Assembly: GCF_947648125.1 (NCBI RefSeq)
Contig: NZ_CANSMR010000016.1
Coordinates: 62,001 to 126,000, forward strand
Reading direction: 5' to 3'
From: an uncultured Bradyrhizobium sp.
Lineage (GTDB): Bacteria > Pseudomonadota > Alphaproteobacteria > Rhizobiales > Xanthobacteraceae
DNA: 64,000 nt
Part shown: piece by piece, positions 2,564 to 60,109 of the stretch
Position numbering within the stretch: the stretch's first letter is position 1
Layout of the letters: the number at the start of each line of letters is the position of its first letter
Notes under the pieces: generated by a model
Database searches by the model: none
Told to the model about the DNA's origin: nothing
The model's input: the letters and a program-made list of their open reading frames with translations, nothing else
Translations under genes and position numbers: made by a program

Positions 2564-3568
2564 CTAGCCGTTGCTGTAGGTGCCGTTCGGGTCGCTGAAC
2601 AGATCAAGCCGCCCTGGCGCGCGGACCTTTGGCGTCGCCGACGCGGTCAGCGAGCCGGAATTGCCCCACAGTTCCTGCACCACCGGCGAGATCGGCTCCG
2701 AACGGTCGCCGCCCTGGTAGAGCGAGCGGAAGGCCGGCGCCGGCTGCGCCGATGCGACGGCCGAGCTCGCACCGGCTGATGAGGCCGCGCGGGCATTCGG
2801 GAAGGTCGAAAGATAGGACGCGGTGTCCATGGTCAGCGGTTGCGTCGGCGCAGCGCTTGCAATCGCATTGGGGCTCATGGTGTCGCCGCCCGCCGCGGCA
2901 AAGGCCGTGCGCGTGTCGTTCGAATTCGCAGCCGCGGCGTAGCGCGTGGTCAACACCGAATAGACCTGGCTGACGCTGCGCGCACTGCCCGACTTGTCGT
3001 AGAAGATCGACTGGTTGGCGGCGGCAGCTTTCGGAAACATCGCGGCGGCATTGGCGCTCGGACTGTCCTCGGCGCTCGAGATCAGCTTGCCGGCGCCGCC
3101 GACGCCCATGAAATGCGCCATGTAGAGCTCGGCATCGGTCGGACGGCGGCCGAGCGTGCCGGTGAGCTTGAAGCTGTTGGATTGCGTCAGCACCGCCGCC
3201 ATCGAGGACGCCGCATCGGGATCGTCGCGCAACTTCATGACGGCGTTGCGCGCGGAGGGATCGCTGACCGAATAGCTGCCGTCGGAGTTCTTGGTGATGG
3301 CGTCGGCATACTGGCCGTAGCCGAGCTGGCTTCCGGCCTCCTTGACGGTGCCGAGCCAGGTCTGGTCGATGAACTGATAAAGCCCATGCGCCGACGAGGT
3401 CGTGGCGCCGGCCCGCGGATTGAAATTGGACTCCATCTTCGCGGTCGTGAGCAGATATTCGAAGCTCGTGCCGGTGGTCGCGGCGGCCTGCTTGATCGAA
3501 CCGGCGACCTTCAGGCGCAAAGCATCGACACCTGCCGAAGCCGTCGCATTGAAGAGGTCGACCGCCAT
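2564..3568 (-). CDS. Lytic transglycosylase-like protein (SLT domain)
   Basis: The N-terminal third is a soluble lytic transglycosylase (goose-lysozyme-like) fold with the motif AKMESNFNP, whose Glu is the predicted catalytic acid, followed by SSAHGLYQFIDQTW. The family cleaves peptidoglycan beta-1,4 links without hydrolysis. The C-terminal 150 residues are Ala/Ser/Pro-rich and look disordered. I chose the ATG at 3568 over an in-frame TTG at 3619, giving 334 residues. No signal peptide is obvious, which is common for flagellar or type III-associated members. A perfect CtrA box lies 68-82 bases upstream, which fits cell-cycle or motility-linked expression. Confidence 0.82.
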   Translation of the reverse strand: MAVDLFNATASAGVDALRLKVAGSIKQAAATTGTSFEYLLTTAKMESNFNPRAGATTSSAHGLYQFIDQTWLGTVKEAGSQLGYGQYADAITKNSDGSYSVSDPSARNAVMKLRDDPDAASSMAAVLTQSNSFKLTGTLGRRPTDAELYMAHFMGVGGAGKLISSAEDSPSANAAAMFPKAAAANQSIFYDKSGSARSVSQVYSVLTTRYAAAANSNDTRTAFAAAGGDTMSPNAIASAAPTQPLTMDTASYLSTFPNARAASSAGASSAVASAQPAPAFRSLYQGGDRSEPISPVVQELWGNSGSLTASATPKVRAPGRLDLFSDPNGTYSNG

Positions 3569-3635
3569 CTGTCCGGGTGCCTTGCCGGGCGCCGGCAATC
3601 GGCGCCCATGTCCCGTCAAACTGCCGTAATTATGG

Positions 3636-3650
3636 TTAACGGCGCGTTAA
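3636..3650 (-). promoter_or_regulatory. CtrA-type box upstream of the transglycosylase gene
   Basis: The sequence TTAACGGCGCGTTAA matches TTAA-N7-TTAA, the CtrA half-site pair, with no mismatch and the right spacing. It sits between the stop of the cytochrome c gene (3657) and the start of the transglycosylase gene (3568). The match is seen directly; binding is inferred. Confidence 0.6.
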
Positions 3651-3656
3651 CAACCC

Positions 3657-4448
3657 TCAAGGCTGGGCCTCGTAGTAATGCGCAACCTGGTCGATCTCCT
3701 CGGCGGTCATCTGGCGCGCGATGTTGCGCATCTGCTGACTGATGTCGTTGCGGCGGGCCGCGGACGCAAATGCCTCGAGCTGCGCCTTGATGTAGACCGC
3801 CGACTGACCGCCGAGCCAGGGGCTTCCCGCCTTGTTGTCGATATCGCCGTGGCAGGAGCCGCAAGGCGGGATGTTGCGCATCGGGGCCCCCGTCACCACG
3901 ACCGCCGGCGCGGGGCGCCCGGTGTCCAGATTGTTCGAAGGCACCCGCGGCAGATAGGCGTAATAGGCCGCAACATCCTTCATGTCCTGATCGCTCATCG
4001 CCGCCGCGAACGGGCTCATCACGACGTTGACCCGCGCGCCGGACTTGAAGTCGTTGAGCTCCTTGTACGTCACCGCGGCAAACTGCCCGGCGAGGTTCGG
4101 TGAATTGGCGTCGCTGACGCCCTGCGGTCCGTGGCAGATCGCGCAACGCTGCGCCAGCGTCGCGCCCCGCCCGATCGAGACCTGATTGACCTTGGTCAGC
4201 ATCTCCGACGTCATGACCACATTGGAGGTCTTGAAATCCGGCTTGACACTGGCCTCCTGCACGGCGGCACGCGGAACGCCGGCTGCGCTGCAGATCGCGT
4301 CCCAGACGCCTGCAAGCTTGAGGTTGGGTTGCGCCAGCGGCAACCAGATCAGGCCCGCAATGGCCGACAGCACGGCAATGGCGGCCGTGACGCCGACGCT
4401 GATGCCGAACCACGGATTGCGCGGGGAGAACAGCTGCTGATCACTCAT
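3657..4448 (-). CDS. Membrane-anchored dihaem cytochrome c (oxidase-associated)
   Basis: The 263-residue product has one N-terminal membrane anchor (~residues 16-38) and two CXXCH haem c sites, CAICH (C102/C105/H106) and CGSCH (C196/C199/H200), each in a cytochrome c4-like domain. It probably hands electrons to the oxidase encoded just upstream. The ATG at 4448 shares an ATGA overlap with the stop of the subunit I gene, so the two are translationally coupled; the longer reading frame back to 4559 is spurious. Downstream is the CtrA box of the next gene. Confidence 0.88.
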   Translation of the reverse strand: MSDQQLFSPRNPWFGISVGVTAAIAVLSAIAGLIWLPLAQPNLKLAGVWDAICSAAGVPRAAVQEASVKPDFKTSNVVMTSEMLTKVNQVSIGRGATLAQRCAICHGPQGVSDANSPNLAGQFAAVTYKELNDFKSGARVNVVMSPFAAAMSDQDMKDVAAYYAYLPRVPSNNLDTGRPAPAVVVTGAPMRNIPPCGSCHGDIDNKAGSPWLGGQSAVYIKAQLEAFASAARRNDISQQMRNIARQMTAEEIDQVAHYYEAQP

Positions 4449-6070
4449 CGGCCAGCTCCGACATAGACCGCGGGCACGCTGGTCTCGTTCAGCGCCATCA
4501 GCTGTGCAATCGGGAAGCCATAGTTCACCACGGTGAGGCCGACCATCAAGGCAAGCCAAAGGCCGAACGAGTTGAGCGCGACCGGAATCCGCGCCGGCAT
4601 ATGCAATGGCACTGCGAAGCGGTATGCACCCGCCTCGCCGCGCGCGCCGAATTGGCCGCGGATCAGGACGAGCAGGAACAGAAGACCCGACAGCAGCAGG
4701 ATGAATCCACCGATCGCCGACATCGTCACCGAGAAGGCCTGCGGCGAGATCGCCGGATTGGCGTAGTCATAATATGCCATGCGGCGCGGCATGCCGAGAA
4801 TACCGACATAGTGCCATGGGAAGGTGGTCACGATCATGCCGATGAACCACAGCCAGAGCTGCGTGCGCATCAGGCCGAAACTGTCCAGCGCGCGCCCGGT
4901 CAGATGCGGCCACAGATCATAGGCGATGGCAAAATACATGATCACGATGGCGCCACCGAAGATCAGGTGGAAATGGCCGGTGATCCACTGCGTGTTGTGC
5001 ACCGTGGCGTCGAGCTGGTAGCTCATGTTGATGATACCGCCGGCGCCGCCGAAACCGAGCATGACCAGCGACAGCGCGGTCGCCAGCATGATCGGGTTGG
5101 ACCATGGCAGCGCCCTGATCCAGCCGAATGCGCCGCGGCCGCCACGGAGGCGGCTTGCGATCTCCGCCGACGCGCAGATCGTGAACACCGTGAGGAGTGT
5201 CGGCAACGTCACCAGGCCGGTAAACACCGAATGCATGAACTTGAATCCGGCGCCGACCTGCGGGTCGGCGAACAGATGATGCACGCCGATCGGCATCGCC
5301 ACCACGACGAACAGGATGAACGAGATCCGTGCCATCGCGTCGCTATAGAGCCGGCCGCCGATCGCGCGCGGGAAGATCGTGTAATAGGCGATGTAGGTCG
5401 GGATCAGCCAGAAATAGACAATGGCGTGCAGAGTCCACGAGAAGAAGACGCGCGCCAGCCCCGCATCGATCGTCGACTTGAGTCCAAGCGCCACAGGCAG
5501 GATCTGGAACAGGATTTCCAGCGCTGCACCGACCGCGGTCCAGCCCCAGAGCAATGAGCCCGCGACATTGGCGTACATCGCAAGCGGCACCGGCTTGCCC
5601 GGGTTCTCGCGCTTCCAGATCGCGAAATTGGTCACCATCAGCGCGACCCAGATCCATGAGCCGACCACGACCATGACAACGCCGATGTAATAGAAGGGAT
5701 TGCCGACCATCGGCGGATAGAAGGTGTAGAGCACCGAGGCGAGCCCGAGCGACACCGGGATCATCGCGACAACGGCGCCGACGGCGACCAGGAAGAAGCC
5801 GGCCCAGGCCCAGCGCCGTCCAATCAGCGCCTTCTCCAGCGACGCTTCGGTGATCGCATAGCCGAAGCCCATCGCGATCAGCGTCGGGAATACGTAGCCC
5901 ATCGCCGAACCGTGCGCGGTGACCGAGCGATAGTAGAATTCCGGATTGAAGTGCCAGGCGTTCAACGGGCTGCGCACGAACATCTGCCAGGCACCGAGCA
6001 CCAGCGCGACGCCGAACACGATGAAGGCGAGCCAGAAATGCGCCGCTATCAGCCGCTTGTTAGTCAACAC
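4445..6070 (-). CDS. ba3-type (family B) haem-copper oxidase subunit I
   Basis: This 541-residue multi-pass membrane protein has the haem-copper ligand set: H53 (low-spin haem), H215 with Y219 four residues later in LHAIVYFW (CuB and the His-Tyr crosslink pair), H264/H265 (CuB), and H366/H368 in TGHFHL (the two haems). The short loops and LHAIVYFWLIPTY motif point to a ba3-like family B enzyme rather than aa3 or cbb3. The reaction is four-electron reduction of O2 to water, coupled to proton pumping. It overlaps subunit II by 11 bases and the downstream cytochrome gene by 4. Confidence 0.92.
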   Translation of the reverse strand: MLTNKRLIAAHFWLAFIVFGVALVLGAWQMFVRSPLNAWHFNPEFYYRSVTAHGSAMGYVFPTLIAMGFGYAITEASLEKALIGRRWAWAGFFLVAVGAVVAMIPVSLGLASVLYTFYPPMVGNPFYYIGVVMVVVGSWIWVALMVTNFAIWKRENPGKPVPLAMYANVAGSLLWGWTAVGAALEILFQILPVALGLKSTIDAGLARVFFSWTLHAIVYFWLIPTYIAYYTIFPRAIGGRLYSDAMARISFILFVVVAMPIGVHHLFADPQVGAGFKFMHSVFTGLVTLPTLLTVFTICASAEIASRLRGGRGAFGWIRALPWSNPIMLATALSLVMLGFGGAGGIINMSYQLDATVHNTQWITGHFHLIFGGAIVIMYFAIAYDLWPHLTGRALDSFGLMRTQLWLWFIGMIVTTFPWHYVGILGMPRRMAYYDYANPAISPQAFSVTMSAIGGFILLLSGLLFLLVLIRGQFGARGEAGAYRFAVPLHMPARIPVALNSFGLWLALMVGLTVVNYGFPIAQLMALNETSVPAVYVGAGR

Positions 6071-6623
6071 AGGTCAGCCTCCGCTTCGCCGCCGCCATGT
6101 CGCGGAACGCGGCCTTGTCGACCACCTTGACCTTGCCCCACATGCCCTGGTGGCCGATGCCGCAGAATTCCTGGCATGGCATCACGTGATCGCCCGGTGC
6201 CTTGAAGCGCACCGGCAGCGCCGTAACGTAGCCCGGCACCAGCATCGTGTTGACGTTGGTGCCTTCGATCAGGAATCCGTGGACAACATCCGCGCTGGTG
6301 GCGCGGAAGGTGATCGCTGTCTCCGCCGGCACCACAACGCATTGCGGCGTGAAGGAATATTGCTGGCCGATGGCGCGCACGGTGACCGAGCCGTCGGCCT
6401 CGATTTCGCTGCCGAGATTGCTCTCGATGAATTCGCCCGACAGATGCAACGTCTTGGGATCGGCGGTTTCGACCCGGCCCTGCGGCATCGTCGCCTGATG
6501 AATGCCGATATAGGCCGCCATGCCGACCAGCAGGCCGACAATCACGATCGACAGCGTCGCCCAGCGCCGCTCGACCCGTGCGGCAACTGCCTCGCCGAGG
6601 TTATGGTCCGTCTCGGTCGCCAT
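6060..6623 (-). CDS. Haem-copper oxidase subunit II (CuA-binding)
   Basis: The 187-residue product has one membrane helix (~residues 23-42) and a periplasmic cupredoxin domain with the full CuA set: H115 in VVHGF, then C150, C154, H158 and M161 in CQEFCGIGHQGM. It receives electrons from cytochrome c and passes them to subunit I. A single N-terminal helix is typical of ba3-type subunit II. I chose the ATG at 6623, which shares its A with the stop of the preceding small gene; the frame upstream to 6671 only overlaps that gene. Confidence 0.92.
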   Translation of the reverse strand: MATETDHNLGEAVAARVERRWATLSIVIVGLLVGMAAYIGIHQATMPQGRVETADPKTLHLSGEFIESNLGSEIEADGSVTVRAIGQQYSFTPQCVVVPAETAITFRATSADVVHGFLIEGTNVNTMLVPGYVTALPVRFKAPGDHVMPCQEFCGIGHQGMWGKVKVVDKAAFRDMAAAKRRLTCVD

Positions 6624-6802
6624 CAGGGCGCGCTCCGCGGCAGGAAGACGAACAGATAGAACGCAAACCACAAGCCGACCACGATCGCCGTCGCAACACC
6701 TGCGATCGCGACCGCGCCGCTCGGGCCCGCGCGAACGATGGTCTCGACGGCCTCGTCTTCCGAGACGGAAGTGGACGGTTGCGGCGAAGATGAGTTGATC
6801 AT
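6623..6802 (-). CDS. Small one-helix protein, probable ba3 oxidase subunit IIa
   Basis: This 59-residue ORF starts at ATG 6802 and ends in a TGA that overlaps the subunit II start by one base. The first ~25 residues are polar and acidic; the rest is one hydrophobic segment (GAVAIAGVATAIVVGLWFAF) ending in FLPRSAP. Thermus-type ba3 oxidases carry a single-helix subunit IIa with a similar PxGAxAV...W..F layout. Position, coupling and topology support that role here; the sequence similarity is by eye and weak in such a short protein. An alternative is an unrelated membrane peptide. Confidence 0.72.
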   Translation of the reverse strand: MINSSSPQPSTSVSEDEAVETIVRAGPSGAVAIAGVATAIVVGLWFAFYLFVFLPRSAP

Positions 6803-6816
6803 GACCGCGTTCCCCT

Positions 6817-6914
6817 AGAGCGCGACGGGATCAGGTTGAATCGTCATCACGCCCTGGCTCCTTGTTTGAGCAAGATCTTTTCGGAAAACCGCTTCGCACT
6901 TTTCCGGATCATGC
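6817..6914 (+). repeat. Dispersed intergenic repeat, copy 1
   Basis: The ~98-base gap between the small oxidase subunit gene and the cytochrome c gene is filled by a sequence ending in a CGGAAAA/TTTTCCG palindrome and TCCGGATCATGC. An inverted, partly diverged copy occurs at 20798-20870. I recognise this as a repeat common in bradyrhizobial intergenic regions. It interrupts an otherwise tight minus-strand operon. Confidence 0.7.
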
Positions 6915-6915
6915 T

Positions 6916-8166
6916 TTAGTTCAGCGTTGCTGCACGCAGTTCATTGGCCTGCCGCGCCGACACCGGCTCGCCGCGGTTGCCCCACGCCGTCCGAATGTAG
7001 GTCACGACAGCCGCGACCTCGTCGTCCGACAGCTTCTGCGCGAATGGCGGCATGCCGTGCGGCATCGGATTGCCTGATGTGCCCGGCGGATAGCCGCCAT
7101 TGAGCACCATGCGGATGGGGTTGACGGCGGAAACCATCTGTATCGACTGGTTGCCGGCGAGTGGCGGATAGTCCGGCGGCATGCCCTGCCCGGTCGCGCC
7201 ATGGCAGCTGGCGCATTCGCGGTCATAGATCGGCTTGCCGAAGGAGAGCAGCAGGCTGCTCTCCGCCGATGGCAGCGGCGTCGACGGCTTCTCAGGCGAG
7301 CCGCGCTGCGCCAGGCCCTTCAGATAGACCGCCATCGCGCGCACGTCGTCGTCATTGAGATATTGCAGGCTGTTGTAGACGACCTCGGCCATCGGCCCGT
7401 ACACGGCGCCCTTGGCGGAGACACCCTTGCGCAGATAGTCGACGATCTCCTCGATCGTCCAATCGCCGAGGCCCGTCTCCTTGTTCGAGGTCAAGGAGGG
7501 CGCGTACCAGTTCTGCATCGGGATCAGGCCACCCTCGAAGGCCTGCGATTGCGAGCTGCCGCCGAGCGCGTTGATCGGGGTATGGCACATGCCGCAATGG
7601 CCGAGCCCTTCGACGAGATAGGCGCCCCGGTTCCACTCGGCGGACTTGCTCGGATCCGGCTTGAACTCGCCTTCCCTGAAGAACAGCGTGCGCCATCCGA
7701 GGATCAGCGAGCGGTTGTTGAACGGGAATGTCAGGTCATGCGGCTTGTTGAGCTGCCTGACCGGCGCCACAGTGCGCAAATAGGCGTAGATCGCCTCGCT
7801 ATCCTCGCGCGTCACCTGGGTGTAGGACGCGAACGGCATCGCCGGATAGACCAGGCCGCCATCGGGGAAGCGGCCATTGTGCATCATCTGGTAGAACTGA
7901 TCCGACGTCCACGTGCCGATCCCGGTCTGCGGGTCGGGCGTGATGTTCGACGTGTAGAGCGTGCCGAATGGCGTCTTCATCGGAAGGCCGCCGGCGAAGA
8001 TCTTGCCTTCGCGCGCAGTGTGGCAGGCGATGCAATCGCCGGCGCGTGCGAGATATTCGCCCTTGGCGATGATCGCCGGATCAGCCGCCGTCTGCTGCGC
8101 GCGTGCCGCGACGGGCGCGAATGCGAGCATCAATCCGACCAGCAGTCCTGTGGAGGTTCGCGACAT
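6916..8166 (-). CDS. Periplasmic trihaem cytochrome c (alcohol/gluconate dehydrogenase subunit-like)
   Basis: A signal peptide ending near AARAQQ is followed by three CXXCH domains: CIACH (~residue 45), CGMCH (~191) and CASCH (~318), 416 residues in all. This three-domain plan matches cytochrome c subunits of membrane alcohol, gluconate and sorbitol dehydrogenases. No dehydrogenase is nearby, and the neighbour is an oxidase, so it more likely works as an electron carrier to the terminal oxidase. A GTG at 8172 with an AAGGG motif close upstream is an alternative start. The upstream cytochrome gene ends 13 bases away. Confidence 0.87.
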   Translation of the reverse strand: MSRTSTGLLVGLMLAFAPVAARAQQTAADPAIIAKGEYLARAGDCIACHTAREGKIFAGGLPMKTPFGTLYTSNITPDPQTGIGTWTSDQFYQMMHNGRFPDGGLVYPAMPFASYTQVTREDSEAIYAYLRTVAPVRQLNKPHDLTFPFNNRSLILGWRTLFFREGEFKPDPSKSAEWNRGAYLVEGLGHCGMCHTPINALGGSSQSQAFEGGLIPMQNWYAPSLTSNKETGLGDWTIEEIVDYLRKGVSAKGAVYGPMAEVVYNSLQYLNDDDVRAMAVYLKGLAQRGSPEKPSTPLPSAESSLLLSFGKPIYDRECASCHGATGQGMPPDYPPLAGNQSIQMVSAVNPIRMVLNGGYPPGTSGNPMPHGMPPFAQKLSDDEVAAVVTYIRTAWGNRGEPVSARQANELRAATLN

Positions 8167-8179
8167 CTGCACGATCCCT

Positions 8180-8890
8180 TCAGTGCGGTTCGCTGCCGCA
8201 TTCGAGCGGCATCGGCAGGCTGCCTCGCGGCGCGAAAGACGGATCCGCCGGCGATGGGCGCGACGACAGGTAGGCAGCCACCGCCTTCACGTCGTCCTCT
8301 GTGAGGAGGCTCGCAACGATCTGCATGCAATCGGGAGCGAGCGCGGTCCGCGTGCCGTAGCGCCAGCCGCCGAGTTGTCCGCTGATATAGGCCGCGCGCA
8401 GGCCAAGCAGGCCCGGGATGCCGGGCTCCATGCCGCCCAATGCCTGACCATGACAGGCCGAACAGGGCGGAATGCCGTGCTGTGGGTCGCCGTTCTTCAC
8501 GATCGCTTCGCCGCGCGCCAGGATCTCCTTGCTGTCGACCGGCGGGACCGGCGGCGGAAATGCCGGCCGGAGCGACGCGAAATACTCGGCGATCTTCTTC
8601 AGGTAATCGTCGGTCTGAAACTCCAGCAGATAGTTCATCGGCGGATATTTCCGCCGCCCGTCCCTGAACGCGATCAGCTGGTTATAGAGGTAGCCGGCTG
8701 GCTTGCCGGCGAGACGCGGAAAATAGACGTCGCTGGTGCCCTCACCTTCGGCGCCGTGACAAGGCGCGCAGGCGAGGACGCGTGCGGCTATGGTATCGGG
8801 TGCACGCTCCGCGGTTTGCGATTGCGCCGCACCGATCGGCAATACAACCCAGGCAAGAAACCCAAGAAGCGGTATCAGGCGATGCGCCAC
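8180..8890 (-). CDS. Periplasmic dihaem cytochrome c (c4-like)
   Basis: The 236-residue product has a signal peptide (cleavage near AAQSQ) and two CXXCH sites, CAPCH (C41/C44/H45) and CSACH (C143/C146/H147), in two tandem class I cytochrome c domains. This is the cytochrome c4 plan. It is the first gene of the respiratory cluster, and the FixK-type palindrome centred ~95 bases upstream of its start probably controls it. With its neighbours the cluster encodes seven c-type haem sites. Confidence 0.87.
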   Translation of the reverse strand: MAHRLIPLLGFLAWVVLPIGAAQSQTAERAPDTIAARVLACAPCHGAEGEGTSDVYFPRLAGKPAGYLYNQLIAFRDGRRKYPPMNYLLEFQTDDYLKKIAEYFASLRPAFPPPVPPVDSKEILARGEAIVKNGDPQHGIPPCSACHGQALGGMEPGIPGLLGLRAAYISGQLGGWRYGTRTALAPDCMQIVASLLTEDDVKAVAAYLSSRPSPADPSFAPRGSLPMPLECGSEPH

Positions 8891-8978
8891 AACTCACCCC
8901 CAGCGCGACGACGATGGGCAATTACTCGCACACAGCCGAACAGGAGGCAACGAAGTGCACCACTTCGACGCATCGCAT

Positions 8979-8992
8979 TTGATTTAGATCAA
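8979..8992 (-). promoter_or_regulatory. FixK/FNR-type palindrome upstream of the oxidase cluster
   Basis: TTGATTTAGATCAA is a perfect TTGAT-N4-ATCAA palindrome, the consensus for FNR/FixK/Anr activators. It lies between the hisI stop and the first cytochrome gene, ~88 bases before that start codon. That distance suits activation from about -41 with a ~47-base leader. It predicts induction at low oxygen. Confidence 0.72.
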
Positions 8993-8996
8993 CGCT

Positions 8997-9425
8997 CTAT
9001 TTGCGGTAGACCTGCGCCGGATCGAACAGCCGGTCTGCATCGACGAATGACAAGCTAATGTCACCGCCCTCGTTCTTCACGGCGCGATAGAAGCAGGAGC
9101 GCCGTCCGGTGTGGCAGGCCGCGCCGATCTGCTCGACCTTGATCCACACCGCGTCCTGATCGCAATCCATCCGGATCTCGATCACGCGCTGGGTCTGGCC
9201 CGAGCTCTCGCCCTTGCGCCACAGCGCATTGCGCGAGCGGCTGAAGTACCAGCCTTCGCCGGTCGCGATCGTCTTGCGCAGGGCTTCGTCGTTCATATGC
9301 GCGACCATCAGCACATCGCCGGTCGCGGCATCGGTCGCGACGCAGGTCACAAGACCTGCCGCGTCGAATTTGGGCTGGAAGGCCAGCCCCTCTTCGCGGT
9401 CGTGATCGTGGGTCGATGCGGACAC
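8997..9425 (-). CDS. hisI: Phosphoribosyl-AMP cyclohydrolase
   Basis: HisI opens the purine ring of phosphoribosyl-AMP in histidine biosynthesis. The 142-residue product shows the family blocks [22 protein letters not shown](S/T)SG, and the metal-binding MDCDQDA with [13 protein letters not shown] chose the GTG at 9425, which has a GCGAGG ribosome site and gives a typical length; the frame back to 9566 overlaps folE. No HisE (phosphoribosyl-ATP pyrophosphatase) domain is fused. It is 28 bases downstream of folE and probably co-transcribed. Confidence 0.95.
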
Positions 9426-46485: not shown

Positions 46486-48495
46486 TCACTGACCGTTGGT
46501 GCGGCGCGCGGCCTTCGGTGCCTCGTCCTTCAGCTTCTCCAATGCGCCGGGCATCATCTGCCCGAACATCGAGCTCAGCATCGCGGTCGGGATCAAACCC
46601 GCGCTGTTGCCCTCCTGCCCCTGCCCGCCCGACATCAGGAATTGCGGCACCAGCGGCTGGTTGATCCGCGTCAGCGCGTCGGCGAACTTCGCGAAGTTCT
46701 GCTCGGCAAGCCGGTATTCCGGCCCGCCATAGGCATCGACCGACAGCTTGGTCGCCTGCGCGTTGGCGGTGCCGACGGCCAGCACCCGGTCGGCCTCGCC
46801 CTGGCCTTCCAGCCGCGACTGCTCGCCGACCGCGGCTGCGGTCACCTTCCTCGTCTCGGCATCCTTCTGTGCGCGGGCGAGCGCAGCCGCGCCCTCGTTC
46901 TCGTTGACCTTGACCTGGATCAGCGATTGCGTGAGTGCCGTCTGCGCCGCCGCCGTCGCCTTGGCTTCGTTCAGCGCGCGCTCCTGCACCGCGGCCTTCT
47001 CCTGCTCCTGATAGGTCTCGATCTGCTCGCGCGCGATCTGGCGCGAGCGGAGCTGGATCAGGATGTTCTCGATGGTGTGGTCACCAGGGGCCGCGCGCGG
47101 CGTGCCGATCAACACCTCCTGAAGATCGAGCGAATAGCTCTCGAACCTCGCTTTCATGTCGTGTTCCGCTTCCTCCTGGATCGCGGCGCGGTTCTGCAGC
47201 AGCTCGATCAGCGTCATCTTCTGCGCGATGTTCTTGAAGAACGCGCTGACCATCGGGTCGAGCGTCTGCTCGACCAGCTTCTTCACGTCGCCGAAGCGCT
47301 GGATGATCATCGGCGCCTTCTTGTAGTCGATATGCATCACCACCGAGAGCGGCAGCGTCGGCTCGAACGCGTCCTTGGTGATCAGCGAGATCTCCGACAG
47401 GTTCTCGTCGAGCTTCATCGCACCGACCTCGCCGCGCATCCATTTCAGGATGAAGTTGACGGTCGGGATCACCTCGATCTTGCCGGCATAGGTGTTGAAC
47501 GCGTACTTGCCCGGCAACAGCGGGTCCTTCCAGACGCCGCGGCTGCCGTTCAGCACCAGCTCGCCGTGGCGGTACTGCTCGCCGGAAACGTCGTCGGTGC
47601 GCGGGCCGGTATAGAAGATGACGACGCCGACATTGCCGACCGGAATCACCGTCTTCGGCACCGCCTCGACGGTCGCGAACAGGCGGTTGATGTACCAGGT
47701 GCCCTCGACGATGACCTGGAGCTGACGGCCGCGATAGCCGCCGGCGCTCAGGAATTTCTCGGGCTCCTGGAAATTGTTGTGAAAGGTCGCCGCGTCGCGC
47801 AGCTCGATGCCGACTTCAGGCGCGATGATCTCACCCGGAGGCAGCGACGGGCCGTCATGCACGGTGACGATGCCGACCAGATCGTGATCGGCCGCCAGCA
47901 CGACCGGCGCAAAACCCCAGCGCTCGGTGATCGTGAGCTGCATGCTCTCGAGCACGCCGCGTTCCCGCTCGCTGAGCGCATGACCGTAGACGCGCTCGTC
48001 GGTGATGACCGCGAATTGCGTCGTGTTGATCGCATAGGTGCCTTCGCGCAGGATCTTGCGCTGCGGCCCCTTCTGGCCGCCGCCGAGCAGGAAGCGGCGC
48101 GCGTCCTGGAAGTCGGACTTGTCTTCGGTGTCGTTGGCGCCAAGTACCTGCGAAGGCTCGAGCGCCGCGCCGTCGCGCGCGAACACATAGGCGATCTTGC
48201 CCTGGCCGACGGTCACGAGGTCCGAGCGGTGGATCCGGTACATGAACGGAAACATCACGTGCAGGCCGCCGCGCAGCACCTCCGGCTCGTAGCCGGCCTC
48301 GCCGTTCAGCGCGATGAAGCCGTCCTCGATCGAGCCCTTCATCGCCCACAGCTTCTCGACGATGCCGACCTGATTGTTGGGAATGTAGCGAAATACGTTC
48401 GATATGCGCAGCAGGATCGCACATGCGACCGCTGCAGCGATCCAAATGGCAGGCTGGGTTAAACCTGAACCATTAAGAAAACCGAGGAAATCCAT
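46486..48495 (-). CDS. SPFH/band 7 (flotillin-like) membrane protein
   Basis: The 669-residue product has an N-terminal anchor helix (AIWIAAAVACAILLRIS), a band 7/SPFH region, and a long C-terminal coiled coil rich in A, E, Q and R (EQIETYQEQEKAAVQERALN), ending in QGQEGNSAGLIPTA. It is longer than typical flotillins, with two SPFH-like stretches (residues ~40-270 and ~270-450). Such proteins form membrane microdomains that scaffold proteases or signalling complexes. The ATG at 48495 is chosen. No NfeD-type partner is adjacent. Confidence 0.85.
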   Translation of the reverse strand: MDFLGFLNGSGLTQPAIWIAAAVACAILLRISNVFRYIPNNQVGIVEKLWAMKGSIEDGFIALNGEAGYEPEVLRGGLHVMFPFMYRIHRSDLVTVGQGKIAYVFARDGAALEPSQVLGANDTEDKSDFQDARRFLLGGGQKGPQRKILREGTYAINTTQFAVITDERVYGHALSERERGVLESMQLTITERWGFAPVVLAADHDLVGIVTVHDGPSLPPGEIIAPEVGIELRDAATFHNNFQEPEKFLSAGGYRGRQLQVIVEGTWYINRLFATVEAVPKTVIPVGNVGVVIFYTGPRTDDVSGEQYRHGELVLNGSRGVWKDPLLPGKYAFNTYAGKIEVIPTVNFILKWMRGEVGAMKLDENLSEISLITKDAFEPTLPLSVVMHIDYKKAPMIIQRFGDVKKLVEQTLDPMVSAFFKNIAQKMTLIELLQNRAAIQEEAEHDMKARFESYSLDLQEVLIGTPRAAPGDHTIENILIQLRSRQIAREQIETYQEQEKAAVQERALNEAKATAAAQTALTQSLIQVKVNENEGAAALARAQKDAETRKVTAAAVGEQSRLEGQGEADRVLAVGTANAQATKLSVDAYGGPEYRLAEQNFAKFADALTRINQPLVPQFLMSGGQGQEGNSAGLIPTAMLSSMFGQMMPGALEKLKDEAPKAARRTNGQ

Positions 48496-48936
48496 AGTCC
48501 ATCTCCACAATTCGCAACTGGGCGGTTTGGAACCCAAACCTCACCCAAGAATTGCGGTGCGGACATGTGGTGCGGCCTTGGCGACGCAAGGCGTGAACAT
48601 TATTCGCACTGCCAATCTTTTTTTGATGACAGCATGAACCGCAGCACTGGCGGCGCGACATCGATCGGCGCGAACAATTTGCTGCGATTGCACATCATTC
48701 GCAGCAGACCGGTCTTGCGCGATGACCGGGGCGTGGACTCATAAAGGTCCGCTTCCGAGGGTGAATCGGTAGTTGCTGGGGTCGATCGTCGTCGACTGCT
48801 TTTGACCCATCGCGTCATCTGCAGCTGCCGACGGCGCACAGTCATATTGCCGCCGTCGAACGTCGGATACACCATAGCGTCCGGTAACAGTAGCGCGAAC
48901 CCGCCGTCTGAAGCGGATTTAACCGATGAGCCCTCT
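48496..48936. other. Intergenic region without a recognised gene
   Basis: These 441 bases lie upstream of two minus-strand genes. A minus-strand reading frame is open over part of it (SVKSASDGGFALLLPDAMVY onward) and runs on into the next gene's other frame, but I recognise no family and no ribosome site. GC content falls visibly compared with the flanks, and an eight-base T-run occurs near 48618. Confidence 0.4.
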
Positions 48937-49857
48937 TCATCCGCGCTTCGACAGCATCTCCTGGAGTATCGCCTCAACCGAGTACGGCGAAATCCCAAGT
49001 TCGACAAAGCCAGGCATCTCCGGCGATGACACGGTGTCGATCTGCATGAGCTCCACCTGATTGCGCGTGAGAAGTGGCTCCGGGAGTATTTCGGAAGCCC
49101 ATGCCAGCGCGTGCCAAACGGCGAACGGGATGGGGACCAGGATGGGCGCGAGGTCAGCTTGGCGCGCGACGATTCCGACCAATTCCTTGTAGGAATAAAC
49201 GCGAGGGCCGCCGCACTCGAAGATCGTTGGTCGCGTCTCGGCTCGCTGGATGGTCCGAACCGTCGCTTCCGCCACATCTTCCACATAGGCAGGCTGCAGA
49301 CTCATCAAGCCACGGCCGAACATCGGGTAGATTGGGAGCCGACGGAGAAGCTTGAGGATGGTCGTGACGAACGCATCGTCCGGTCCGAACATGACGGCGG
49401 GTCGGATGATATGTGCGTCGGCGAAGGCAGCCCCGACCACCAATTCGCCTTCGCCGCGCGCTCGGATGTACCGCGATTGAGACGCGGCATCGGCGCCGAT
49501 GCCTGAAATGTGAACGAGCCTTTTGACTCCGGTCCGGCGCGCTTGGGCTGCTACCCGTTGGGCGGCTTCGACATGAACGGAATGAAACGTCTCCCGACCG
49601 TGCTCGACGTAAAGGCTGACCGCATTTACGGCGGCGTAAGCCCCGGCAAGTGCATCCGCGACAGACCGTACGTCGTGAATATCGGCCTGGACCAATTGGA
49701 GTTGCGGATCATGAGGGCCAGACTGACTGCGCCCGCGATCTGGATGCCTTGACGCGATCCGGACGGGAAACTCGCGATCGCGCAGACGCTGAACGATGCG
49801 GCGGCCGAGAAAACCGGTTCCGCCGAATACGGTGACGGTGCGACCGTTCGTTGCCAT
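48937..49857 (-). CDS. NAD(P)-binding SDR protein (NDUFA9-like)
   Basis: The 306-residue product has the atypical SDR cofactor motif VFGGTGFLGRRIVQRL, AAVNAVSLYVEHGRETF, HISGIGADAASQSRYIRARGE and IRPAVMFGPDDAF. These match NDUFA9-like NAD(P)H-binding proteins, in bacteria often unlinked to complex I. Substrate is unknown. The first gene of a mosaic region, it is divergent from nothing obvious; its ATG at 49857 is followed upstream by the VOC gene. Confidence 0.88.
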   Translation of the reverse strand: MATNGRTVTVFGGTGFLGRRIVQRLRDREFPVRIASRHPDRGRSQSGPHDPQLQLVQADIHDVRSVADALAGAYAAVNAVSLYVEHGRETFHSVHVEAAQRVAAQARRTGVKRLVHISGIGADAASQSRYIRARGEGELVVGAAFADAHIIRPAVMFGPDDAFVTTILKLLRRLPIYPMFGRGLMSLQPAYVEDVAEATVRTIQRAETRPTIFECGGPRVYSYKELVGIVARQADLAPILVPIPFAVWHALAWASEILPEPLLTRNQVELMQIDTVSSPEMPGFVELGISPYSVEAILQEMLSKRG

Positions 49858-49979
49858 CCTTTGATCTTTGCTCGAGAGACCGCGCCATAGTCCGAGCCGA
49901 AGCTGACGTCAGGGCGCTGCCGTCTGTCGGAACAATACCCTCTCTCAGCGACTGTTGGAATGCAGGCTGCTTCGATCCG

Positions 49980-50348
49980 CTATTGGACGGAAGCCGGAAG
50001 CAAAGGTCGAGCGAAACTGAGTTCCTGGCCGTCGGGATCAACCAGGTGGAAGAAGCGCTCACCCCATTTGGCATCGCGGGGCACAGTCGCCGGCTTGTAA
50101 CCTGCCGCGAGCGCGCGTTCGTAAAGTGCGTCAACATCGGTGACGTAGAAGATGACCCGACCCCACCAGGACCAGCGTCGTTCGGCTGGTTGGTCGGTGA
50201 GGTTGAGGTAGCTCGTACCTGCTCGAAAGCTAGTGAACGACGACCATTCGCCGCCATGCAGCACCTCAAATCCCAGCGCTCGGTAGAATTGGACAGCCCG
50301 TCGCATTTCATGCGTGCCGAGTGTGACCGCGCTGACCCCCTCGATCAT
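49980..50348 (-). CDS. VOC superfamily (glyoxalase/dioxygenase fold) protein
   Basis: The 122-residue single-domain product opens MIEGVSAVTLGTHEMRRAVQ with FYRALGFEVLHGGEWSSF, GRVIFYVTDVDALYERALAAG and FFHLVDPDGQELSFARPL, giving a His and Glu metal-binding pattern. Members include glyoxalase I, antibiotic resistance and extradiol enzymes; nothing selects one. The ATG at 50348 has AGGAGAG 7 bases upstream. A TTG six bases earlier is possible. Confidence 0.88.
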   Translation of the reverse strand: MIEGVSAVTLGTHEMRRAVQFYRALGFEVLHGGEWSSFTSFRAGTSYLNLTDQPAERRWSWWGRVIFYVTDVDALYERALAAGYKPATVPRDAKWGERFFHLVDPDGQELSFARPLLPASVQ

Positions 50349-50575
50349 GGCCAAACTCTCCTGTTCGATTTCGCTGCGCCTTTTGTTGTCGCGGCAGCGG
50401 GATTAACCTCCACCTCATGTGTGACGAACGGCGAGCAAGTCAACGTCGAGCAACGCTTTCCATGCGTCACCGCTCACGGCGAACGGTAGACGTCCCAAAA
50501 AGTTCGAACCGAACATGGAGAGGCTCTAAACTCTAACCAGTCGATCCGAACAGCACACGCGAAAAGGAGCAGAGC

Positions 50576-51058
50576 ATGAAGGGCGATAAAGACGTTATCG
50601 AATACCTCAACAAAGCGCTGCGCCACGAGCTCACCGCGGTGAACCAGTACTGGCTGCACTACCGCCTGCTCGACAATTGGGGCTACAAGGTGCTGGCCAA
50701 GACGTGGCGCAAGGAATCGATTGAAGAGATGCAACATGCAGACAAGCTCATCGAACGCATTATCTTCCTCGATGGATCTCCCAATATGCAGACGCTGGAA
50801 TCCCTTCATATCGGGAAGACCGTGAAGGCCGTGCTCGATAGCGACTTACAAGCCGAATTGTCGGCGCGCTCCCTCTACGCTGAAGCCGCGACCCATTGCC
50901 ATCAGGTCGAAGACTACGTGACACGGGATCTGTTTGAGCAACTCATGCACGATGAGGAAGAGCATATCGATTTTCTGGAAACCCAGATCGAACTCGTCGT
51001 GAGGATCGGTCTTGAGCTATATGCCCAGCGCCATATCGGAGAGCTCGACAAGGACTAA
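50576..51058 (+). CDS. bfr: Bacterioferritin
   Basis: The 160-residue product has all ferroxidase ligands in place, E18, E51, H54, E94, E127 and H130, and the haem ligand M52. Bfr forms a 24-mer that oxidises and stores iron with haem at subunit interfaces. AAAAGGAGCAGAGC precedes the ATG. No bacterioferritin-associated ferredoxin (bfd) gene is beside it. It is in the mosaic region, divergent from the VOC gene, so transfer of the whole segment is possible. Confidence 0.95.
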   Translation: MKGDKDVIEYLNKALRHELTAVNQYWLHYRLLDNWGYKVLAKTWRKESIEEMQHADKLIERIIFLDGSPNMQTLESLHIGKTVKAVLDSDLQAELSARSLYAEAATHCHQVEDYVTRDLFEQLMHDEEEHIDFLETQIELVVRIGLELYAQRHIGELDKD

Positions 51059-51432
51059 AGTGCCAACAACTGCTTTTGGCCTTTGTCGGTCATGCCGCGC
51101 TGGTTGACGAAGGTCCGCTCCGGCAAGGCTCTCCGCCTCGTTAGAGTTGTGATCAATCTCAAGACCGCAAAAGCGCTCTGGGTTGAAGAGCCGGCAAGGC
51201 TACCCTCGCCGACGAGGGACCGAATGAGGGCTCCATCTGCTGCGATGCATAATCTGAAACTGGCCCATCGCTTCAGTTGGCGCAGTGCAGCGGCATGTCT
51301 GAAACTGGGGGTAGATCGGAAGTAGATGGCCAACTACAAAATAACGCGAATGACCCAAGGCGACATCGGCTGCGCAATGCACAACACAACTATAATGTGG
51401 TAGCGTGTAGCCCTTGGTTGGGAGGAAATCCC
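51059..51432. other. Intergenic region with a gene remnant
   Basis: Apart from the ABC_sub_bind tail fragment at 51128-51183, this 374-base gap holds no complete gene. The last ~20 bases carry GGGAGGAAATCCC, the ribosome site of the gene at 51433. Confidence 0.5.
51128..51183 (+). pseudogene. Fragment of an ABC_sub_bind gene C-terminus
   Basis: The translated stretch LRLVRVVINLKTAKALWVEE carries VINLKTAKAL, the C-terminal signature of the intact binding proteins at 51433, 52416 and 58795. The rest of the gene is missing, so only a decayed tail remains. Confidence 0.6.
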
Positions 51433-52419
51433 ATGAGGCGGCGGGAATTCATTGCGTCCCTTGTGAGCACGATCGCCGTATGGCCGTTCGCGGCCCCCGC
51501 TCAGACTGCGTCAAAGGTGTACCGCATCGGGATCCTCAGTACCGATGGACCCGCCGACGCTAAGAGCATTTTTGACGCAATGTTGCATGCCTTAGCGAGT
51601 CACGGTTACATACCCGAGCGCAATATTGCGCTCGAAATCCGTGCCAGCGGGATCCACACTGAACAGCTGCCACAGCTTGCCAAGGATCTTGTCGCGAGCA
51701 ACGTGGATATGATCCTTGCCTTCAGCTTTCCCGCAGCCATGGCCGCCAAGAACGCCACGGCAACGATTCCAATCGTGTCGACCGAAGCGGGGGGAGATCC
51801 CGTTGCGACGGGCTTGGTCAAAAGTCTGTCGCGGCCAGGCGGCAACGTAACCGGCGTCTCTGATATGGCCATCGAACTTGCTCCCAAGCGTCTCGAACTG
51901 ATCAAAGACATGGTGCCTTTGGTGCGCTCCGTCGCAATGCTCTGGAACGCTCGCGATCTGGGCATGACGCTGCGATACCAGGGGGCGGCCGACGCCGCGC
52001 GGGCAATTGGGGCACGAGTGCAACCCCTCGCGGTGCGTGAGCCGGATGATTTTGACGAAGCTTTCGCAAGCATGGTGCGCGATCCGCCAGATGCAATTCT
52101 CTTGGTCTCGGATGCACTCACTCGCCTGAATCGCCGACGGGTCTACGAATTTGCCGATGCACATCGGCTGCCGGCCACCTACGAGCGGGCAAACTATGTG
52201 CGCGAAGGCGGCCTGTCGTCCTATAGCCCAGACTTGGATGAAATCTACGATCGAGCGACCTCTTTGATTGATCGCATTTTTAAGGGAGCCAACCCGGCGG
52301 ACTTACCATTCGAGCAACCGACGCGTTTTCACCTCACCATCAATCTCAAGACAGCTAAGTCGCTCGGCATTACAGTGCCCGCTTCAGTGGTTGCTCGCGC
52401 CGACGAGGTAATCGAATGA
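51433..52419 (+). CDS. ABC_sub_bind (PF04392) periplasmic binding protein 1
   Basis: The 328-residue product has a TAT-like signal (MRRREFIASLVSTIAVWPFA) and the family pattern: KVYRIGILSTDGP, SRPGGNVTGVSDMAIELAPKRLELIK, AMLWNARDLGMTLRYQGA and the tail LTINLKTAKSLGITVPASV. These proteins are strongly expanded in Bradyrhizobium, usually without a permease; ligands are largely unknown. It is coupled to the next paralogue by an ATGA overlap. GGGAGGAAAT precedes the ATG. Confidence 0.9.
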   Translation: MRRREFIASLVSTIAVWPFAAPAQTASKVYRIGILSTDGPADAKSIFDAMLHALASHGYIPERNIALEIRASGIHTEQLPQLAKDLVASNVDMILAFSFPAAMAAKNATATIPIVSTEAGGDPVATGLVKSLSRPGGNVTGVSDMAIELAPKRLELIKDMVPLVRSVAMLWNARDLGMTLRYQGAADAARAIGARVQPLAVREPDDFDEAFASMVRDPPDAILLVSDALTRLNRRRVYEFADAHRLPATYERANYVREGGLSSYSPDLDEIYDRATSLIDRIFKGANPADLPFEQPTRFHLTINLKTAKSLGITVPASVVARADEVIE

Positions 52420-53402
52420 AGATGCATCATCTTCTCCTCGTCATCGCCGCCGCGCTCTTTCTCGCGTCGCCCTCCCACGCGCAGATCGCCAAGGTTTACC
52501 GCATCGGTTTCCTAAGCCCGGGAGACTTTGCGCCGGGCACGAACTCCGGCAGGCTGACGGAAGAAATCTCTCGCCAACTTGCGCAAAGTGGCCTCACGGC
52601 CGGCGCCAATCTCGAGCTAGTCAAACGCGGGGCGGAGGGGCACCTTGAACGCCTGCCGGCGTTAGTTGCGGAACTGGTGGCGGCGAAGGTCGATGTCATC
52701 GTCACCTTCGGCTATCCAGTCGCGGAGGCGGCGAAGGAAGGCACGAGCACGATCCCCACCGTGATCTTCAGTGCCGGCGATCCGGTAAAGACGCATCTTG
52801 TCGCGAGCCTCAACCGACCGGGTGGCAACGTCACCGGCATTTCCGACGTAGCTGCCGAGCTCGCGCCAAAGCGCCTTGAATTGTTGAAGGAGGCAGCCCC
52901 CAAACTGCTTCGCGTGGCGATGCTTTGGAACGCCAATGATCTCGGGATGACGACGCGTTACGAGGCTTCGGCGGCGGCGGCCAATAAATTGGGCGTCACC
53001 GTCATGTCCTTCGGCGTGCGCGAGCCGGACGATTTCGGCGGCGCGTTCGAGGCGATGGAACGCGACAAGCCCGACGGCCTGTTGATGGTCGCCGATGCCC
53101 TCACATTTCTTAATCGCAAGCGCGTCTTCGACTTCGCCGCAGAGCACCGCCTGCCCGTGATCTATGAGACGAGTGTCTTTGCACACGATGGCGGCCTCAT
53201 GTCCTATGGCCCGGACGAGAACGAAGCCGCTGGGCGCGGCGCAAATCTTGTTCTGCGCGTCCTGAAAGGCGAGAAACCCGCCGATCTACCGCTCGAGCAG
53301 CCGACCCAGTTTCGCCTCGTCATCAACCTTAAGACAGCAAAGGCGCTTGGCCTCACTGTGTCGCCAGGCCTGCTGGTCGCCGCCGACGAGGTGATTGAAT
53401 AG
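52416..53402 (+). CDS. ABC_sub_bind (PF04392) periplasmic binding protein 2
   Basis: The 328-residue paralogue is co-translated with the previous gene (4-base overlap). A signal peptide (HHLLLVIAAALFLASPSHAQ) precedes KVYRIGFLSPGDF, NRPGGNVTGISDVAAELAPKR and LVINLKTAKALGLTVSPGLL. The two share most residues of the VxGxSD and APKRLEL blocks, so they are a tandem duplication. No membrane permease or ATPase is nearby. Binding of a small carboxylate or sugar is possible; the ligand cannot be read. Confidence 0.9.
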   Translation: MKMHHLLLVIAAALFLASPSHAQIAKVYRIGFLSPGDFAPGTNSGRLTEEISRQLAQSGLTAGANLELVKRGAEGHLERLPALVAELVAAKVDVIVTFGYPVAEAAKEGTSTIPTVIFSAGDPVKTHLVASLNRPGGNVTGISDVAAELAPKRLELLKEAAPKLLRVAMLWNANDLGMTTRYEASAAAANKLGVTVMSFGVREPDDFGGAFEAMERDKPDGLLMVADALTFLNRKRVFDFAAEHRLPVIYETSVFAHDGGLMSYGPDENEAAGRGANLVLRVLKGEKPADLPLEQPTQFRLVINLKTAKALGLTVSPGLLVAADEVIE

Positions 53403-53572
53403 GGCTGGTAATGCTGCGGTGCATGAGTCTCAAGTTGGCCCATTCGAGACATGCCAACTGCACCGAGCTGTGTCCGCATTCAGGGGCAATCCGGAAGGCA
53501 TGTTGCTCATGCTGAGTTCTTCTCAGTTTGACCCAACTCCGGCGTCCGGAAGACGTCGCGTTCGGGATGACG

Positions 53573-54823: not shown

Positions 54824-55203
54824 GCAGCCTGTCCAAGCCTGGTATCGATCTCCTCGCGCAGCAGCACGAAATCGATCGGTTTGGTCAAAAGTCCGACCGC
54901 TCCGCGCTCGATCGCCTTCCGCCGGGTTTCAGCGTCGCTATAGGCGGTGATCATGATCACCGGCACGTCGGGCCGCTCGGCGCGCAATTTTGGCAGCATC
55001 TCGAGCCCGCTCATGCCGGGCATGTTGATATCGGACAGGATCAGGATCAGCGGGGGTTCGCGAACCTCCACGGCTCGTTGCAGCGCTGCAACTGCGGATG
55101 GCACGAACTCCATCTGAAAGCGCCCTGCACGCAGATCGCGCCGGAACTGCTGACGGAACAGAAATTCGACGTCGGGTTCGTCGTCCACGACAAGAATGTA
55201 CAT
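54820..55203 (-). CDS. Single-domain response regulator
   Basis: The 127-residue product is a bare receiver domain, MYILVVDDEPDVEF, with D58 in SDINMPGMSGLEML and Lys in LLTKPIDF. It sits between the histidine kinase (stop 2 bases upstream) and the receiver-cyclase (4-base overlap), so all three are coupled. It may be an intermediate or a phosphate sink. ATG 55203 is chosen over a TTG at 55209. Confidence 0.92.
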   Translation of the reverse strand: MYILVVDDEPDVEFLFRQQFRRDLRAGRFQMEFVPSAVAALQRAVEVREPPLILILSDINMPGMSGLEMLPKLRAERPDVPVIMITAYSDAETRRKAIERGAVGLLTKPIDFVLLREEIDTRLGQAA

Positions 55204-55205
55204 GC

Positions 55206-58337: not shown

Positions 58338-58794
58338 CTCCGCCCTTTTTTAGCAAGAAGGCCTCATCTTGTCTCTTGCTGTGCAGTGCGGGAGGACAGA
58401 ATTGCACGGGCTGGCCCGAAAGCTGAAGCGCATCAGCAATCGCATCACCTGCTCCGGTAAACAGCGTGAAGCATTTCTGACCGGCTGCGCAGCATTCGCC
58501 CGCGATATGCAAGGCATCCAATTCCAATAATAGCCCCACCCACTCAGGCCGGTTTTAAAGGAGTAGCCCGGAATTGACTGACACGTGGCCAAAGCAGTGC
58601 TTTGACCAACTCGGCAACAGTGTCCTTGTTTCCCGCCGTCTTGTCCGCTTCAATCCAGGAGGGAGATCGGACTAAAGCTCGGGCGGTCTCGTAGGAGCGG
58701 GTTTGACCCAACAGAGACATGAGCGGGCTGCTCTTGCTGCTATGCGGCCCTAAACTGCCATACCTCGCATCATCCTAGGGTTGGGGTTAACACG
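58338..58794. other. Intergenic region between divergent genes
   Basis: These 457 bases separate the kinase operon from the next ABC_sub_bind gene. I see a Cys-rich open frame on the minus strand (58231-58539) of uncertain status. The segment 58697-58790, with GTTTGACCCAACAGAGACATGAG, resembles one at 53525-53550 after the earlier paralogue. No tRNA or clear terminator is seen. Confidence 0.4.
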
Positions 58795-59778: not shown

Positions 59779-59809
59779 GGACGGCACGACCTGTCCAGTA
59801 ATGGTCCCT

Positions 59810-60108: not shown

Positions 60109-60109
60109 C

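Follow-up and report, generated by a model that had tools for sequence, protein, structure and literature searches.

The B-family haem-copper oxidases are known biochemically mainly from thermophiles and haloarchaea. In the ba3 oxidase of Thermus thermophilus and the B-type enzyme of Aquifex aeolicus, subunit I is accompanied by a one-helix, CuA-bearing subunit II and by subunit IIa, which is encoded directly before subunit II. Characterised members named in PMC3128077 also come from Rhodothermus, Geobacillus and Natronomonas, and Table 1 of that source, a listing from 2011, already includes a B-type oxidase of Bradyrhizobium japonicum USDA110, to which the USDA110 proteins can be matched by mass (IIa, 5972; II, 20123 minus Met = 19992 Da). 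Eight oxidase complexes are attributed to USDA110 in PMC4036050. The premise of the sequence-only reading, namely, that bradyrhizobia are known for aa3, cbb3 and bd oxidases, is thus outdated, and homologues were found in 122 of 265 Bradyrhizobium genomes, USDA110 included, with up to five first-look candidates scored per genome. The USDA110 B-type oxidase (NP_771121) has the same six-gene order as the cluster described here, and its cassette presumably corresponds to bll4479-bll4483, judging from the order of accessions; its subunit I is only 75.5% identical to that of our locus and sits in another branch of the tree.

The cluster occupies positions 3657-8890 on the minus strand of the window, the whole 64,000-nt stretch of DNA that was analysed, as delineated by reading of the open reading frames and alignment of homologues. 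In the direction of transcription, the features are:

8979 to 8992, minus strand: perfect FNR/FixK-type palindrome TTGATTTAGATCAA, TTGAT-N4-ATCAA (pattern search)
8921 to 8950, minus strand: possible core promoter TTGCCT-N17-GAGTAAT (by eye from alignments, weak consensus match)
8180 to 8890, minus strand: c4-like dihaem cytochrome c with signal peptide, 236 aa, 2 CXXCH (c4 6q2u_A, E 3e-25)
6916 to 8172, minus strand: AdhB-like trihaem cytochrome c, 418 aa, 3 CXXCH (8gy2_B, 295 bits)
6803 to 6915, minus strand: gap of 113 nt with a dispersed repeat able to form a hairpin (repeat copies in the genome)
6623 to 6802, minus strand: subunit IIa, 59 aa, one TM helix, PSGA motif and Trp (alignment, signature rule)
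6060 to 6623, minus strand: subunit II, one TM helix, CuA site C-X3-C-X3-H-X2-M plus upstream His (1ehk_B best, 101 bits)
4445 to 6070, minus strand: B-family haem-copper oxidase subunit I, 541 aa (similarity search, tree, ligands)
3657 to 4448, minus strand: membrane-anchored c4-like dihaem cytochrome c, 263 aa, 2 CXXCH (6q2u_A, E 9e-21)

This gene set agrees with the one originally proposed, two cytochromes with two and three CXXCH motifs, a one-helix subunit, subunits II and I and a membrane dihaem cytochrome, as does the total of seven c-haem sites (2 + 3 + 2). Two starts were set within the listed reading frames: that of subunit II at the ATG at 6623 (the frame began at 6671) and that of the membrane dihaem cytochrome at the inner ATG at 4448, where its relatives begin to align (the frame reached 4559). 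Neighbouring genes overlap or are separated by at most 7 nt, with the exception of the gap between the trihaem and IIa genes, the repeat of which contains an 18-mer with 23 exact copies in the genome (control, 0); a scan of positions 3500-9200 yielded no Rfam family above its cut-off. The hydrophobic segments fit a signal peptide on the first dihaem cytochrome and a single TM helix in each of the proteins IIa, II and membrane dihaem cytochrome; no TM-like segment above the hydrophobicity cut-off was detected in the trihaem protein.

Subunit I is most similar to Thermus ba3 (334 bits), followed by 7deg, which we take to be the Aquifex oxidase (258 bits), whereas A-family enzymes score at most 54 bits and the 59 sequences listed with E ≤10 include no cbb3 chain. 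In the tree, the B group (support 95/94) is separate from the genome's own paralogues, four of the A type (CtaD/CyoB-like) and one CcoN. Using what we assume to be the Thermus residue numbers, we mapped through the alignment all six His ligands of haem and CuB, the cross-link Tyr219 and a K-path comprising Tyr226, Tyr230, Thr291, Thr294 and Thr297, of which Thr291 is Ser in Thermus. Subunit II finds its closest match in Thermus ba3 subunit II and has an intact CuA site. Its gene is directly preceded by that of IIa, in keeping with the B-family rule, that is, a IIa signature PX1-3GT/A plus Trp and IIa encoded directly before II (PMC3128077); IIa has no Pfam match above cut-off, and neither subunit I nor subunit II reaches the cut-off of an NCBIfam model. 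Two orthologues are named 'cbb3-type' by NCBI, a name that the similarity search and the tree do not bear out. The designation ba3-type is supported at the family level: compared with the A, B and C families, subunit I groups with B and clusters with neither aa3 nor cbb3 enzymes, and subunit II and the one-helix subunit are likewise of the B-family kind. As judged from sequence, subunit I is that of a complete B-family (ba3-like) oxidase, with ba3 denoting a sequence family, from which haem composition cannot be read. The bit scores and the tree rule out an A-type or C-type oxidase, the cross-link Tyr and CuB ligands a nitric oxide reductase, the catalytic Tyr a degenerate ba3-a1 type and the intact CuA site a quinol oxidase.

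The six-gene order is found in 37 of 38 Bradyrhizobium loci, our own counted, the remaining one being broken by a contig end, and in 91 of 92 alpha- and betaproteobacterial loci. The latter set consists of 12 plasmid loci (43 plasmid records had a match; four others served as outgroups) and the best 80 of at least 442 confirmed named relatives, so that it is tilted to close relatives, and some of its genomes duplicate others. In samples of the class and the phylum, 2 of 385 and 5 of 398 genomes, respectively, had a match, our own genome counted, although these counts may be low, given that at most three first-look candidates were scored per genome. Many bacteria of soil and roots carry the six-gene set, and the trihaem gene, being present in 91 of the 92 cassettes, is part of the unit. 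The multihaem cytochromes that had been proposed as the oxidase's own are therefore part of one conserved cluster with the oxidase genes.

Both dihaem proteins resemble cytochrome c4 across two c domains (residues 36-209 in the first protein, 95-260 in the last), whereas the trihaem protein is homologous to AdhB-type cytochromes through all three haem domains, with the 8gy2_B alignment stopping at residue 435 of 478. We consider it probable that the six genes form an operon for an auxiliary B-family cytochrome c oxidase with its own electron-donor set, induced through FixLJ-FixK2 in some lineages. Most likely, the oxidase works at low oxygen with the cluster's cytochromes as its donors; the donor chain, the oxygen and NO roles and the FixK dependence are what we infer. 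The donor set would comprise two c4-like dihaem cytochromes, one soluble and the other anchored in the membrane, and a soluble AdhB-like trihaem cytochrome. Electrons would be supplied by the bc1 pool or, through docking on the AdhB-like cytochrome, by periplasmic dehydrogenases, and would pass through the c4-like carriers, with the membrane c4-like protein as the presumed final step to CuA; O2 would then be reduced at the haem-CuB site, with protons taken up via a single K-type path. Falling oxygen may boost transcription through FixLJ-FixK2 in the window species and some related ones, probably from a class I position.

The palindrome that had been claimed upstream of the cluster is indeed present; it lies 4 bp past the stop codon of hisI, with 88 bp between it and the first cassette gene, and it conforms to the FixK2 consensus TTGA/C-N6-T/GCAA (PMC6710368). 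If the candidate promoter is used, the palindrome would lie ~70 bp upstream of the start, possibly a class I position. In the window, the exact palindrome occurs once; with one mismatch allowed, there are three, a number reached by 10 of 100 shuffles. Across the 8.57-Mb genome, the exact palindrome is found in 14 places, one of them 59 nt upstream of the probable ATG of the genome's own ccoN/fixN, and ~4 kb from fixN (contig C3) lies a gene for a FixL-like sensor (537 bits, below the family's 850-bit cut-off). Of the 28 loci of the window's clade, 14 have the consensus box. In the commoner second Bradyrhizobium group, which has a different conserved promoter-like block, it is present in only 1 of 29 loci; the USDA110 cassette, a member of this group, lacks it in the 170 nt upstream. 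Because the box is missing in 14 clade loci and 28 second-group loci, FixK control does not characterise the family as a whole; it is plausible, but specific to some lineages. Of the claim that the cluster is FixK-controlled, the consensus site and its occurrence in half of the clade loci thus stand, whereas the commoner group does not follow, and the support is at the DNA level. The same absences and the alternative promoter-like block would also fit a chance or decaying box, with a constitutive or other promoter driving the cluster. This explanation concerns the FixK part alone, is compatible with the oxidase function and seems unlikely to us, given that the reversed control pattern occurs only once in the genome and that the half-sites are slightly more conserved (0.81, 20 clade loci) than the inner six positions (0.70) and the rest (0.73). 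Furthermore, independent boxes are found in other lineages: in the set of plasmid and best 80 of at least 442 named loci, a strict FNR box lies upstream of 17 of 91 cassettes, versus 30 of 5167 background windows, and box presence requires at least four forced changes on the tree.

A broader scenario would see in the six genes a mobile, self-sufficient module of plant-associated alpha- and betaproteobacteria, with a seven-haem wire (c4, AdhB-like, membrane c4) that can bypass bc1, repeatedly rewired to FixK/FNR or NO control, which would sustain respiration in nodules and at root surfaces when other oxidases are poisoned by NO; we regard it as quite improbable. Among the flanking families, we examined those that seemed related to NO or oxygen, other recurrent ones being taken as local synteny. 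A gene 76-100% identical to the NorR of locus L161 (762 bits to NorR; six further matches at 38-47% were left out of the count) lies near the cassette in 10 of 131 loci, and an NnrS-like neighbour in 7 of 131 (Mesorhizobium, Caballeronia, Variovorax and a Bradyrhizobium MAG); NnrS is found in the cassette flank of 3 of 38 genomes (24 NnrS matches in all), with chance roughly estimated at 0.07. The six COX1 matches of our genome are of A, B or ccoN types, none being norB-like, and NO reduction in vitro is described for bacterial ba3 oxidases (PMC8780969). These observations would fit a mainly nitrosative role, with a NO-tolerant oxidase or side NO reductase that is produced at low oxygen alongside the NO-response genes. 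However, according to the same source, haem-copper oxidases reduce NO at substantially lower rates than NORs do. Moreover, the active site, with its Tyr, is that of a full oxidase, the close NorR genes occur only in the Burkholderiales and lie farther from the cassette in two loci, and Caballeronia accounts for two of the three flank NnrS cases, which makes such a role decidedly doubtful. Direct NorR/sigma-54 control was rejected, as the 420 nt before the cassette in the ten NorR-linked loci showed neither a sigma-54 nor a NorR-type pattern, a result that also counts against a nitrosative role. Very unlikely is a bc1-independent branch in which the trihaem protein takes electrons from ubiquinol or a separately encoded sugar or alcohol dehydrogenase and passes them to CuA, since, despite a 295-bit match over the three-haem length to the cytochrome subunit of a quinone alcohol dehydrogenase and its gene's retention in all but one of the 12 plasmid and best 80 (of at least 442) named cassettes, the protein lacks the C-terminal part (43-56 residues, four best chains) and a TM-like segment, and the cluster contains no dehydrogenase gene.

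For the B family, no Km for O2 has been reported, to the knowledge of the authors of PMC6431628, and the many Bradyrhizobium homologues, that of USDA110 included, mean that a tractable mesophile could show the role of this family at low oxygen. In Table 2 of PMC6321122, Bll4482 (NP_771122), named an alcohol dehydrogenase, has a nitrogenase-like symbiosis pattern in soybean bacteroids. Its accession adjoins that of USDA110 subunit II, and by position it would be the AdhB-like cytochrome, so the oxidase branch may operate in nodules under a wrong label.

In the literature as searched (rhizobial and Burkholderia ba3, B-family and c4, FixK2), we found no account of the six-gene set, although figures of PMC6431628 may show it, and ba3 is not mentioned in the available text of PMC8239418 and PMC9381517; what appears new is the donor set, together with its low-oxygen and NO gene context. 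The degenerate ba3-a1 oxidases are also B-family relatives in alphaproteobacteria, but they lack the catalytic Tyr and are accompanied by SCO genes (PMC6431628), whereas our subunit I retains the Tyr and none of the six genes encodes SCO. AdhB/FdhC-type dehydrogenase cytochrome c subunits share with the trihaem protein three CXXCH motifs and likeness in all domains, but those of the membrane alcohol, glucose and fructose dehydrogenases have the C-terminal tail missing here, presumably their membrane anchor, and no dehydrogenase partner is encoded among the six conserved genes. Cytochrome c4 has the two-domain dihaem likeness of both dihaem proteins, from which it differs in that one cluster copy is membrane-anchored and both are encoded beside a B-family oxidase. 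The Thermus ba3 and Aquifex B-type enzymes share with our subunit I the haem and CuB ligands and the K-type path. The donor of Thermus ba3 is a monohaem c552; unlike in the Thermus and Aquifex systems, the oxidase genes in the window are flanked by three multihaem cytochrome c genes.

Six closely packed minus-strand genes (8890 down to 3657) make up a real operon, which is conserved and belongs to a known oxidase family; hisI adjoins it upstream and a gene with a lytic-transglycosylase domain downstream. As the sequence-only reading had it, the cluster carries seven c-haem sites, by our count of CXXCH motifs, and is preceded by a perfect FNR/FixK palindrome:

8992-8979, minus strand: exact palindrome TTGATCTAAATCAA, 4 bp past the hisI stop codon and 88 bp ahead of the first cassette gene
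8180-8890, minus strand: c4-like dihaem cytochrome c
6916-8172, minus strand: trihaem cytochrome c
6623-6802, minus strand: one-helix protein of 59 aa (IIa)
6060-6623, minus strand: oxidase subunit II
4445-6070, minus strand: oxidase subunit I
3657-4448, minus strand: membrane-anchored dihaem cytochrome c

Compared with sequences in the PDB, subunit I reaches 334 bits against Thermus ba3, 258 bits against 7deg_A, which we take to be an Aquifex oxidase chain, and at most 54 bits against A-family chains, with no cbb3 chain among the 59 sequences listed (E up to 10); subunit II is best matched by Thermus ba3 subunit II. Subunits I and II pass the general Pfam cut-offs (COX1 and COX2) and neither reaches any NCBIfam cut-off. 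The ligand and K-path residues of subunit I and the CuA motif are intact, and the 59-aa protein has the gene position, PX1-3GT/A motif and Trp that mark IIa according to PMC3128077. In a 21-row tree, in which the program flags long branches, subunit I groups with B-type proteins of haloarchaea, Deinococcus and Geobacillus (support 95/94), and the five other haem-copper oxidases of the genome fall outside this group. Compared with the A, B and C families, the protein is thus nearest to B, and no clustering with aa3 or cbb3 types is seen; the proposed ba3 type holds in the family sense. When their matched stretches were scanned, CtaD was the best profile for three of the other five, CyoB for a fourth and CcoN for the fifth, whose score exceeds the CcoN cut-off. 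Cytochrome bd subunit I has two matches in the genome. A CtaD-like subunit I gene is located on the contig of the window (G000:C16:50989-52383), ~10 kb before window base 1, so that two oxidase loci lie near each other.

The genome contains 14 exact palindromes versus one for the reversed pattern. One is 59 nt ahead of the likely ccoN/fixN start, ~4 kb from which lies a FixL-like gene (537 bits, under the 850-bit cut-off). Scans of seven proteins beside other palindromes identified a universal stress protein in one case and found no clear oxygen link for the remaining six. The FixK2 consensus (from PMC6710368) occurs within ~170 nt upstream in 14 of the 28 loci of this Bradyrhizobium clade, including our own, all 14 being among the 20 with subunit I identity of at least 91%. 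Across these 20, conservation is 0.81 for the half-sites, 0.70 for the inner six positions and 0.73 for the rest, a difference that is no more than suggestive. FixK control of this cassette, as originally proposed, is likely on sequence grounds, but is not a trait of the whole family: in the second, commoner Bradyrhizobium group, a site is present in 1/26 loci and in none of three further ones. The single case, L067 (genome G053), carries TTGACCTAGATCAA ~119 nt ahead of its first cassette gene, perhaps an independent gain. Most of the second-group loci L049-L074 share a different, conserved promoter-like block, CTTGCGC ... GCAATAATGC, then TCCGGAATCAACCGGA, between ~-100 and -30 relative to the first gene, where this clade has the FixK box. 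More broadly, strict boxes occur in 17/91 upstream windows (300 nt) versus 30/5167 background windows, and a looser search finds 22/91 loci versus 0.27% of 1820 base shuffles. Mapped on the tree, box presence changes five times, at least four of them forced, with box lineages in Bradyrhizobium clade 1, Rhizobium/Sinorhizobium-like bacteria, Burkholderia and Beijerinckia. Given these counts and changes, low-oxygen control of the cassette looks recurrent, not universal.

The six-gene order is kept in 37/38 Bradyrhizobium loci, our own included, the remaining one being cut by a contig end, and in 91/92 further loci (12 plasmid and 80 named, the latter the best 80 of at least 442 confirmed relatives and hence biased to close ones). 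At L103, the first and second cassette genes were undetected. Cassette-bearing genera include Rhizobium, Sinorhizobium, Mesorhizobium, Methylobacterium and Beijerinckia on the alphaproteobacterial side, and Burkholderia, Paraburkholderia, Caballeronia, Variovorax, Cupriavidus and Janthinobacterium on the betaproteobacterial side. Homologues were found in 122/265 Bradyrhizobium genomes at E <= 1e-60, a few just 55-60% identical. Because the two Bradyrhizobium groups stay unjoined in the trees, 22 plasmid records hold copies at 60-80% identity, and some Bradyrhizobium genomes contain two copies, horizontal transfer of the cassette is likely. In three Bradyrhizobium contigs (G901:C85, G859:C1 and G1030:C85), the subunit I homologue is split into two neighbouring parts, which may reflect broken copies or errors of assembly.

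Between the trihaem gene and IIa, a dispersed minus-strand repeat (6869-6915) can fold as a hairpin; its 18-mer (6874-6891) has 23 exact copies in the genome versus 0 for the reversed control. Among 11 clade loci, this gap measures 114-116 nt in the window, L039 and L040, and 10-29 nt in the other eight. The repeat might alter the ratio of donors to oxidase. Elsewhere in the window, G+C drops from ~0.65 to 0.57-0.64 at 48001-62000, a possible acquired stretch; no tRNA was found in the 64 kb.

Close NorR genes lie upstream of the cassette in 10/131 loci, all from Burkholderiales; a search ahead of the first cassette gene in these ten detected neither a NorR nor a sigma-54 pattern. NnrS-like genes are nearby in 7/131. 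NnrS is found in 19/38 tested genomes (24 matches, one below cut-off) and in the cassette flank at three of those 38 loci, against a rough expectation of 0.07. In M. nodulans, a Crp/Fnr gene is upstream. Such neighbours provide genomic context, not proof.

The suggestion that this oxidase is new to bradyrhizobia falls, as the USDA110 copy, on the minus strand, is already tabulated: both masses given for NP_771121 in Table 1 of PMC3128077 equal those of the proteins encoded there, 5972 Da for IIa and 19992 Da for subunit II after subtraction of Met from 20123 Da. Bll4482/NP_771122, which by accession order would be the gene ahead of subunit II and hence the trihaem cytochrome, shows a nitrogenase-like pattern alongside FixK2 in Table 2 of PMC6321122. 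The literature searched on ba3/B-family oxidases and the FixK2 regulon yielded no description of the six-gene accessory arrangement. Both dihaem proteins match cytochrome c4. The trihaem protein is homologous to dehydrogenase cytochrome subunits over all three domains (295 bits against 8gy2_B), and no dehydrogenase gene is among the six of the cassette. Whereas those subunits have a C-terminal tail, the cassette protein lacks it, ending where that tail starts.
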